Below, in pieces: positions 45,867 to 49,978 of a DNA stretch of 64,000 nucleotides. Every line of letters begins with the position of its first letter. The stretch's first letter is position 1. Origin of the DNA: Asterochloris sp. CNOR1. Its lineage: Eukaryota; Chlorophyta; Trebouxiophyceae; Trebouxiales; Trebouxiaceae. A program made the position numbers and the translations under genes. Where the stretch lies: positions 2,914,001 through 2,978,000 of the forward strand of contig OZ017749.1 in NCBI GenBank assembly GCA_963969365.1, written 5' to 3'. A model generated the notes under the pieces. That model saw only the letters and a list, made by a program, of their open reading frames with translations. It ran no database searches and was not told the origin of the DNA.

Positions 45867-46812
45867 TCAGTTAAGCTGGCTCTTAACGTTCTGCAAGACA
45901 ATGAGGTGCGAGTTGTTGATCAACAAACGTCAGCGGCAAAGCAACACGCAAAGAGTGAGAGTGTGCAGGAAGAAACCCAAGCTACAGGCACCTGCAAGCC
46001 ACAGCAAGAACATGATCAGATGAGCAGTAGCTTACCCCCTTGGCCTCGTGGTACTTGCCTGCACACAAGAGTGGCACAAGTCAGTTGCAGACAGAGTTGA
46101 GCGATCTCTTTGTGAGTGTGTTGAGCAGCAGACACAGCATTGCAGCAACCACAGCAGGCCCACCCTTAGCATCGCCCTTCAGGTCCTTGGCAGCACCTGC
46201 TCAGGCAGCAGGAGAGCAGTTTGTAGTGAAATAGCACGAATGAGCAAGAGATGTTGAGCAGGACAGGAAGACAGCAGCCATATGGCTGCTTAAGCTGATT
46301 TGTATGGCTCACCCTTCACAGAGTCATCATCCCTGAATGCCTTGAAAAGGATCACGCCACCAATGACTGCAGACGCAGCAGAAAGGGGTGACCTCAATGG
46401 CTGGCATCATACAGCTGAGGACAGCCAGCAGAAGGCATCCTACACCATATCCCCCATCAATGCTGTGCAATCTTGACCAAGCTTCAAGATGATGTCAAAG
46501 GCTGCATGCTGCTCAGAGCCAGCATGCCGGGCTGGGGCATAACCTGCCCTAAGACAGGCGAGCAGCCTGCCAGCACACCGCACCCACATCTGAGCTTGAT
46601 CTGGTCAAGATGTTGCACTGCCAGAGCCACGCTTCAGAGCTTCAGGCAGGACCCTGAGCGCAGCCTGCCACCACCCCTGAGCGCAGCCTGCCACCACCAG
46701 TCAACAGACCACCCACACAACAGAACAGGAGACCTCCTTCATTGCTTGAAAGGCTGAGCTCACCGGCAGCGACACCCACGGCGATCTTGACAATGTCGTC
46801 TGAGGTAGCCAT
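45867..46812 (-). CDS. 60-aa single-pass membrane peptide with Lys-rich tail, five micro-exons
   Basis: Exons 46812-46764, 46366-46313, 46196-46164, 46058-46036 and 45890-45867 (49, 54, 33, 23 and 24 nt) each have a GT donor and CAG acceptor, and all four junctions are in phase. The product starts MATSDDIVKIAVGVAAVIGG, has one hydrophobic helix at about residues 8-25, then a charged tail with repeats of the type KGAAKDLKGDAKGKYHEAKG, ending VKSQLN. The repeat looks like LEA/CsbD-type hydrophilic stress proteins, anchored by a helix; function and membrane are unknown. A TGTAA follows 48 nt after the stop. No open frame longer than about 20 codons marks it, so it is easily missed; it could still be a chance chain, but phase, residue pattern and poly(A) signal agree. 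Confidence 0.6.
46652..46697. repeat. 23-bp tandem duplication
   Basis: Two exact copies of a 23-bp unit (46652-46674 and 46675-46697, starting ccctgagcgcagcctgcc) inside the first intron of the 60-residue peptide gene. Confidence 0.93.
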
Positions 46813-47544: not shown

Positions 47545-49633
47545 ATGGACGCCGCAGCTGACATGATCGAGAAGGGAAAGCAGCATCTGCCAGAGGTCCT
47601 GAAGATCACCCATGCAGGACACAATGCCCTCAGCGTGGTCTGCGTGGCCTTCGCAGCAGCAACCAGTGAGCCCCTCCACGATTTTGCTGTCACAGTGCTT
47701 TTGCCTGTCATATTGTTCCACTTTGCTAAACTGTCGTTATGCTTGCAGTCATCTTCCTTGCCCTTGGCATGCGCGAAGCCCCTGCTCGCCGGGAGCACTT
47801 CTGTAAGTCTTGCAGAAAGTGGCCCTTGTGTCCTGTTCTACATGTTGTCTGCTGCTTGGGCGTCTCTGCAGCAAGCGCTCTGGTCAGGCCCGCTGCCGGC
47901 CTGAACTCTGCATGGTCTCTGCACTGCAGATGCCACCACTGTGGTGACATGCATGGCATTCCTCAGCTACTACGCAATGTCTACCGGCTATGGATGGACC
48001 ACCGTCTCCGTTGGCAACTCCGACATGGCCCGCCAGTTCTTCTACGCCCGTTACATTGACTGGGCTGTCACCACCCCCCTGCTGCTGGTGAGGGCTGGAG
48101 CTGGCAAGCAGTTTGCTTTTGAGTCTGTATACGTTAGCACCATCTATGTTGGATTTGCATCAGCTGCTCGGCGACCGAGCCTGGCTGACAACCATTACCT
48201 GGTGGGGCGGGAGACAGACTTGACCATCACACCTTCTTCCCAGATAGACTGCTTCCCCATGCAGGTGGATGTCTTCCTGCTGGCTCGTGTCAGCTGGGGC
48301 GCCATTGGCTGGGTCATCTTTGCTGACCTTGGCATGGTAAGCACTGACTTGCTCCTGAAGTCCATGTAAGCCTAAGACCTGCCAGGCGCTGCAGCTGTCA
48401 CCTGCCAGGCCCGTGCTTTCGTCATGTCCTGGGCATATTGGAGAGCTCCTCTTGTCAGCCTGCTTCCTTCTAACTCCCAAATGGCATTTACGTATCACCA
48501 GCGTGACTAAGCTGATGTGGGCTGCAGATTGTGACTGGGCTGCTGGGCGCCCTTGTCCCAGACGCATCCCGTTGGGGCTGGTTTGCTATTGGCTGCATCT
48601 TCATGCTGGTGAGGCCTGCCTTGTGACAAATCTGTGATTGCCAGCCGTGGTAGGCTGGTAAACTGAGCCCATCACTCACTTTGCTATGTAGGGAGCACTT
48701 AGCATGAGTTGTATGCTCATCTAGCAGCAATTGCGACCTGCTGCAAAACAATGCGAGGGGCTGTTCTGTGCTTTGCCAACCCAGCTGCCTGACTCAGGTC
48801 TGCACATATTCTTTGTCTCTACAGGCCATCTTCTACCAGCTGCTGACCGAGACCCGTGCAGCCGTTGAGAAGCGTGACTCCAGCCTCGTAGGCTTCTACA
48901 ACAGCCTGGTGCTTGGCCTGGCTGCCCTATGGACTGCCTGTAAGTTTGTGCTTCGGCAGGCCTGCCCTGAAGCAGCAGTTTGGCTTGGCACAGAGCAAGC
49001 CGCCTGTGGACTGGCTGCCAGTTGTGTACTAAGCAGGCTTTGCTATGTCTGATGTTTCAGCTCTTGGCTGGCCTCTGCTGCAGTCCTGTCTCGGCAGCCT
49101 TTTCTTTGAAGCATGTCCCTATTGGCAATGTCATCCTGTCCACTCTGTGACCAAGTTCTGCTGCTGCCCGCAGACCCCATTGTGTGGGCCCTGGCAGAGG
49201 GCACCAACTACATCTCTGCCAATGTGGAGGTGAGCTGCACAGATGCCTGTTGGCACCCTGCGCACCTCATCCCTAGCGCTGCTGCCTGTGCGCACCTAGA
49301 TCTGCATGGACTTGTGCCAAATCTGCCCCCCCGCTTACACACAACTTCAACTCTGCCTGCAGACCTACTGTTATGCTGTCCTGGATGTGGCAGCCAAGAT
49401 TGGCTTCGGCGCCGTCATCATTGGCAGCAACAACCGCTTGATGGAGAGCTACGGCATTGGCAGGCGGGTGCTGCCCTGCTGAAAGTTGATTTGGATCTTG
49501 CGAGTGTGGAATATAAATTCTTGGCCCTTCCATGCAAATGGCGCCTGTCACTTGCTCCGACTCTGACATGCTGCTCTTCCTCTGTGGCAGGGGTGCAGTG
49601 GGCGATGCTGAGGCTGCACTGCTGCAGGAATGA
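47545..49633 (+). CDS. Type-1 (microbial) rhodopsin, probable light-driven outward proton pump
   Basis: Exons 47545-47665, 47749-47802, 47930-48087, 48244-48336, 48528-48608, 48825-48939, 49174-49229, 49363-49463 and 49591-49633 give 273 residues and seven helices. Compared with bacteriorhodopsin, every pump residue is present: Arg99 (R82), Asp102 (proton acceptor D85), Thr106 (T89), Asp113 (proton donor D96), Glu216 and Glu226 (E194/E204 release pair), Asp234 (D212) and Lys238 (K216, the retinal Schiff-base Lys) in VLDVAAKIGFG. Leu110 at the L93 position predicts green absorption. Helix C reads ARYIDWAVTTPLLL; helix F reads LWTAYPIVWALAEG. The last junction is uncertain: a GC donor at 49463 gives a short tail (AVGDAEAALLQE), whereas a GT donor at 49467 with acceptor before 49599 gives a roughly 363-residue protein with a long basic tail ending at 49907. 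Confidence 0.95.
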
Positions 49634-49973
49634 GTTGTCAGCCAAATCCAAGCAGCGCTCCAAATTGCCTGCCAAAAAAAAGGGTATCTTTGGCGCCCTG
49701 ACTGCCCCTGTGTACAGGCAACAGTGTGCTGTTGCGCCTTCAACCAACACCTCCCGTGTCCACGCACCCAAGTCCATCAGATCTTCCCCCAACCTGCTGA
49801 CCTCAAGGCCCATTGCCGGCAGGCTGCAGGCAGCCTATCGTGCTCCTCGGCAAATCGCTGCCCAGCAATGTCTGAATACCTGCTCTGCTTTTTGCAAGGC
49901 CTTCTGACAGTAGCTGCTTTCAAAACTGTGCTTACTTCCACCTGCAATAGCCTGTTGCTCATTGAAAGCTGTT

Positions 49974-49978
49974 TGTAA
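49974..49978 (+). terminator. Candidate poly(A) signal TGTAA of the rhodopsin gene
   Basis: The first convincing TGTAA after the rhodopsin exons is here, 341 nt after the short-form stop and 67 nt after the long-form stop. It therefore fits either ending, slightly better the long one, and abuts the end of the convergent TMEM161 gene at 49990. Confidence 0.35.

Follow-up and report, generated by a model that had tools for sequence, protein, structure and literature searches.

A bacteriorhodopsin-type gene of Asterochloris sp. CNOR1 that probably encodes an outward proton pump

Light-driven pump rhodopsins of the bacteriorhodopsin (BR) kind have already been described in other algae and in fungi. 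Solved structures relevant here include PDB entry 6gyh, which we take to be CsR, the rhodopsin of Coccomyxa subellipsoidea; 7bmh, presumably LR, the rhodopsin of Leptosphaeria maculans (the entry itself says Opsin); and 5awz and 3am6, which we assume to come from Acetabularia. The 6gyh sequence contains the CsR antibody peptide named in PMC5781313, which also gives the Acetabularia rhodopsins and CsR as algal pumps of this kind and counts very few known eukaryotic plasma-membrane proton-pumping rhodopsins. According to PMC4657025, CsR, an outward pump by measurement in oocytes, absorbs at 545 nm and becomes a passive proton channel when R83 or Y57 is changed. A review table citing other work (PMC9434271) gives rhodopsin as a feature of lichen-forming algae that non-lichen-forming algae lack.

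Here we describe a type-1 rhodopsin gene in a 64,000-nucleotide stretch of the Asterochloris sp. CNOR1 genome (C4:2914001-2978000; hereafter the window). Judged by its residues, it probably encodes an outward light-driven H+ pump with retinal at K231. The gene is not named in the titles and abstract openings found, a scope without most subscription papers and database annotations. The host alga may be a lichen partner. The link between lichens and rhodopsins could be tested well in a genome like this one, where a histidine-kinase rhodopsin accompanies three BR-like opsins. For optogenetics, the window protein is a candidate silencer driven by green light.

Gene model

The gene occupies positions 47545-49482 of the forward strand and consists of eight exons in one frame, encoding 258 amino acids. 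Its seven introns are all GT-AG and measure 83-234 nt; the GC content of the window is 55-65% in 2-kb steps, which is near the 56-62% given for 98% of the A. glomerata genome (PMC6652019) and unlike Trebouxia sp. A48, whose 69.1-Mb genome has 49.7% GC (PMC12712428). The features, in window coordinates, are as follows.

47545..47665 (+): exon 1, opening with the ATG and covering the N-terminus and first stretch of helix A (MDAAADMIEKGKQHLPEVLKITHAGHNALSVVCVAFAAAT), from the translation
47749..47802 (+): exon 2, end of helix A, from GT-AG introns and alignment, the donor also from the CsR-guided run
47930..48087 (+): exon 3, helix B plus the larger part of helix C, containing Y72, R99, D102, T106, T107 and L110
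48088..48264 (+): intron 3, 177 nt, containing an alternative acceptor ending at 48243 that would insert IDCFPMQ
48265..48336 (+): exon 4, D113, end of helix C, D132 and M135, from gap-free alignment and the CsR-guided run
48528..48608 (+): exon 5, end of helix D and start of helix E, from the translation, the CsR-guided run and alignment
48825..48939 (+): exon 6, remainder of helix E and start of helix F with W198
49174..49229 (+): exon 7, Y201, P202, W205, E209 and E219 (BR Y185, P186, W189, E194 and E204)
49363..49482 (+): exon 8, helix G with D227 and the retinal lysine K231, a short tail, and stop TGA at 49480-49482
49599..49907 (+): open basic frame, Lys/Arg-rich, 3' of the stop; possible tail exon via a weak GT donor at 49468, not favoured
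49974..49978 (+): TGTAA, possible polyadenylation signal, a motif we take to be the green-algal one

The gene is real and intact, and its match to the rhodopsin family lies far beyond chance. Pfam found a single domain, Bac_rhodopsin (PF01036; 163.7 bits against a cut-off of 24.6, E 6.1e-48), spanning residues 31-239 and profile positions 8-218 of 224. The sequence-only reading, which had placed a type-1 rhodopsin at these coordinates and noted no long regulatory domain, is supported on both counts: Pfam found no HisK, cyclase or other extra domain in the 258-aa model.

We compared the exon limits with an automatic spliced alignment of the locus guided by a stretch of CsR without the CsR N-terminus. 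For exons 3-7 this run agreed with our model on both limits, and it also agreed on where exon 2 ends and exon 8 starts. Instead of exon 1 and the beginning of exon 2 it chose different sequence. Our placement of exon 1 and of the first exon-2 residues is based on the open frame, on a phmmer alignment with Leptosphaeria rhodopsin that starts at residue 22, and on the HAGHN motif of exon 1, which the window protein has in common with a paralog at C4:4066k (L008, below). Because exon 1 was not recovered by the CsR-guided alignment, the N-terminus is, beside the C-terminus, the least certain part of the model.

At the 3' end, the alternative splices listed offer no clear advantage over reading through to the TGA; other splices and a longer tail, with the frame extending to 49907, are possible. 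The third-position GC content of the frame at 49599-49907 is 0.65; the coding sequence has 0.74, and the two remaining frames have 0.49 and 0.57. The open stretch at 49599-49907 may be a tail exon, a chance frame or a piece of another gene. About 0.7 kb upstream of the opsin, a divergent frame has its start region at ~46780-46812 (-), beginning MATSDDIVKIAVGVAAG...; that it encodes a small membrane protein is a guess.

The sequence-only reading had proposed a 273-aa protein ending at 49633. We could rebuild it exactly by using the acceptor at 48243 and a GC donor at 49464, both doubtful, and an end at 49633 found no support. The acceptor at 48243 retains 21 nt of intron 3, adding seven residues (IDCFPMQ) inside helix C, whereas the acceptor at 48264 leaves helix C gap-free against CsR, Leptosphaeria rhodopsin, archaerhodopsin-2 and the paralogs L006 and L008. 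We rejected the insert, as it is absent from all five of these proteins; the pump-like paralogs L006 and L008 have no intron at this site. Since IDCFPMQ starts with Ile-Asp, an Asp falls at position 113 in both models by coincidence: the Asp113 earlier taken as the homologue of BR D96 was encoded by intron sequence, and the true homologue occupies position 113 once the model is corrected. The residues earlier numbered E216, E226, D234 and K238 become E209, E219, D227 and K231. With its good pyrimidine tract, the upstream acceptor may still serve in some transcripts.

Functional residues and the proton-pump reading

Searching PDB sequences with phmmer returned 141 distinct matches at E <= 0.001, led by 6gyh (E 2.9e-41) and then by archaerhodopsin-2 and 7bmh. 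The best 60 of the 141 comprise BR and its variants, archaerhodopsins, CsR, LR and Acetabularia rhodopsins. The alignments with solved structures cover residues 37-241 (CsR) and 22-248 (LR).

We compared the protein with BR at 25 positions, with BR residues and numbers anchored on motifs, and found the same residue at 23. Equivalents (BR in brackets) include T61 (T46), Y72 (Y57), R99 (R82), D102 (D85), T106 (T89), T107 (T90), L110 (L93), D113 (D96), D132 (D115), M135 (M118), M161 (M145), W198 (W182), W205 (W189), E209 (E194), E219 (E204), D227 (D212) and K231 (K216), the last being the retinal-binding lysine position in helix G (motif LDVAAK). The two differences lie in the retinal pocket, where W138 is replaced by F154 and S141 by G157. 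The protein thus has the outward-pump set of Asp85, Thr89 and Asp96 homologues (D102, T106 and D113), the homologues of the shuttle residues Arg82 and Tyr57 (R99 and Y72), and those of the release group Glu194 and Glu204 (E209 and E219), so that each class of pump residue named in the sequence-only reading is present in the corrected model. The sites of CsR R83 and Y57, equivalent to BR R82 and Y57, are unchanged.

An outward pump built on these residues would work as follows. Light would isomerise the retinal and the Schiff base proton would pass to D102; R99, Y72 and the E209/E219 pair would hand a proton to the outside, and D113, aided by T61, would reprotonate the Schiff base from the cytoplasmic side. 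In the alga, such a pump would likely hyperpolarise a membrane or add to the proton-motive force. By analogy with CsR and with the maxima of Acetabularia rhodopsin and LR, its absorption maximum is likely green, roughly 520-550 nm. Leu110, from which green absorption had been predicted, is indeed present; on its own it does not fix the color, being a rule of thumb, and two other pocket sites differ. Several features count against the pump reading: the occurrence of the same Asp-Thr-Asp set in cation channels (below); a stretch before E194 that is one residue shorter than in archaerhodopsin-2, a difference also seen in CsR; a long end branch of 2.23 in the tree described below; and the presence of F154 and G157 instead of BR W138 and S141.

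As a general rule, cryptophyte bacteriorhodopsin-like channelrhodopsins carry a Cys at the Thr90 position. PMC7175095 shows that cryptophyte BCCRs carry the Asp85/Thr89/Asp96 set as well, and these three residues therefore do not suffice for pumping; the pump residue set, complete as it is here, is no proof of transport. A light-gated channel of the bacteriorhodopsin-like sort, for protons or cations, is nonetheless a quite improbable reading of the window protein. The protein has Thr107 at the BR T90 site, where PMC7175095 gives Cys119 for the cryptophyte channel RaCCR1, and it keeps R82 and Y57, which hold CsR in pump mode according to PMC4657025. The best 60 of the 141 PDB matches, listed above, also argue against a channel. 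That the gene is a decaying or silent paralog is very improbable: the protein is divergent, with 38.7% identity to CsR over 204 aligned residues, but 258 codons without a stop, seven GT-AG introns and the retained proton-path residues do not fit decay. A further reading, which we regard as unlikely, is a light sensor that keeps the pump residues and photocycles but signals via a partner protein and moves few protons. The long branch in the tree would fit such a sensor, as would the close CsR-like rhodopsin already present in the genome (E 1.2e-65 to 6gyh), because a second copy could then have been freed for another task. Sensors, however, often lose the proton donor and the release glutamates, and the window protein retains the donor D113 and both glutamates, while Pfam found no transducer or kinase domain in it. 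In PMC7693036, which covers 47 modular algal rhodopsins, Asp96 is reported for AsRh4 only.

Related rhodopsins in the genome and descent of the gene

We searched the 56.4-Mb genome with PF01036 and with the window protein, in both cases exon by exon, so that the counts are lower bounds. The PF01036 search gave five matching stretches at four loci, or at least three rhodopsin loci beyond the window gene; the same settings gave no match in 14 control genomes. The window protein matched 12 stretches at E <= 1, eight of which are the gene itself and four of which lie at the same three other loci:

C10:2505k (-): L006, CsR-like, 114/204 residues identical to CsR (55.9%), E 1.2e-65 to 6gyh
C4:4066k (-), C4:4062000-4070500: L008, BR-like opsin, PF01036 E 5.9e-38
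C10:1952k (-), C10:1948500-1956500: L007, histidine-kinase rhodopsin with PF01036, HisKA and HATPase_c

L008 has His at the BR R82 site, Ser at T89 and Asp at E194, and keeps D85, D96, E204, D212 and K216. Since changes at CsR R83 give a light-gated proton channel (PMC4657025), L008 may be a naturally occurring proton channel or else a pump of low activity. L007, which we spliced by eye with one junction unsure, has Gln at BR 85 and Asn at BR 212 and thus lacks both counterion acids, as do AsRh3 and Chlamydomonas Cop6 in PMC7693036; a deprotonated, UV-absorbing Schiff base is conceivable for it. The PF01036 genome search found no counterparts of AsRh1 and AsRh2. RPE65-type carotenoid oxygenases matched 22 stretches on five contigs, 18 of them above the cut-off, making a retinal-producing enzyme possible, although the family does not tell the product.

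Upstream of the L006 opsin exons, at ~5199-5100 (-) in L006 coordinates, there is a WD40-like stretch (E 0.001; 20 bits, below the cut-off of 27). It lies ~0.6 kb upstream of the exon LAVYWITFGL (4467), with an ATG in between. The start of helix A in the CsR-like opsin seems to come from that exon. A Rav1 match upstream of L006 was not found in the two frames tested.

Intron positions link the three BR-like genes. In the aligned part, three introns of the window gene (seven) and L006 (seven) coincide in column and phase, with a chance of 3e-5 over 612 sites if introns fall evenly. Two are common to the window gene and L008 (six introns; chance 0.001) and two to L006 and L008 (chance 0.002), the same two occurring in all three genes. 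The introns flanking exon 7 on both sides are common to the window gene and L006. Paralog introns were taken from a scripted spliced alignment; an extra L006 intron in helix A, recognised by eye, falls beyond the aligned part and does not enter these counts. The shared introns indicate that the window gene, L006 and L008 most likely derive from one intron-bearing ancestor.

For a tree, we used 39 rows: the window protein, two paralogs (L007 was left out), five PDB chains and 31 loci from the genome_contigs collection. In that collection 157 of 189 stretches encode a relative; we kept the best 80, hand-picked 31 of them for spread, and lengthened each on its 5' side, wherever the frame stayed open, by at most 120 nt. 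Beside the genes of this alga, CsR is the only opsin from Trebouxiophyceae in the tree and LR the only one from a fungus, and dinoflagellates are absent. The tree placement proposed in the sequence-only reading, made here with the 258-aa protein, put it on the eukaryotic-pump side of a 97/96 branch and outside a group of CsR, L006, Acetabularia, LR and L008 (96/88), with the root at the midpoint. In a tree without seven long rows, L008 among them, these values were 97/94 and 91/80. In AU tests, holding the window protein with CsR and L006 gave p 0.053, with L008 0.095, with LR 0.181, with all green-algal rows 0.104 and with the 22 haloarchaeal rows 0.063.

The AU tests thus do not firmly reject other placements. 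On a separate-lineage reading, an old line of eukaryotic BR-type pumps would have branched off ahead of the CsR, Acetabularia and Leptosphaeria types and would survive as the window gene; the same alga would also have retained a CsR-type pump and the Arg82-to-His paralog, with pump, possible proton channel and sensor forming one opsin set. We consider this rather unlikely as a whole. We rejected a horizontal origin from haloarchaea: the introns common with the paralogs speak against it, while the tree alone gives no firm rejection. A scan of viral_contigs for a virus origin returned 73 pattern matches and no confirmed relative.

Comparison with known rhodopsins

Among described proteins, CsR has the same proton-path residues and is likewise green-algal, with 79 of 204 aligned residues identical to the window protein (38.7%). 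It is closer to the paralog L006 (114/204, 55.9%) than to the window protein, and has Y and S at the W138 and S141 sites, where the window protein has F and G. LR (PDB 7bmh) is identical at 93 of 227 residues (41.0%) and has the RYIDWA.TTPLLL.D motif in common, but differs in having Asp at BR E194 and a longer helix B-C loop, and it is fungal. Archaerhodopsin-2 (PDB 1vgo; 85/208 identical, 40.9%) has both release glutamates, as in the window protein, but carries one residue more before E194, is haloarchaeal and falls on the opposite side of the 97/96 branch. Acetabularia rhodopsins I and II (PDB 5awz and 3am6) are likewise members of this Pfam family and pumps from a green alga; in the tree their place is with CsR and L006 (95/76, and 98/93 in the reduced tree) and not with the window protein.

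AsRh4, as given in PMC7693036, is green-algal and pump-like, with the same Asp-Thr-Asp set as the window protein; its D2593, D2718 and K2722 lie behind Rav1 and WD40. The prefix As may stand for Asterochloris. The AsRh4 distance of 129 between BR positions 85 and 216 equals that of the window protein and also that of L006. Given its N-terminal WD40 and the weak WD40 match upstream of L006, AsRh4 is probably the counterpart of L006 and not of the window gene, and the published Rav1/WD40-rhodopsin fusion may be two neighbouring genes merged by annotation. L007 in turn matches AsRh3, for which PMC7693036 lists Q78, T82, T83, V89, L187, C195, N203 and K207: it has the same letters at these sites and the same 85-to-212 and 85-to-216 distances of 125 and 129.
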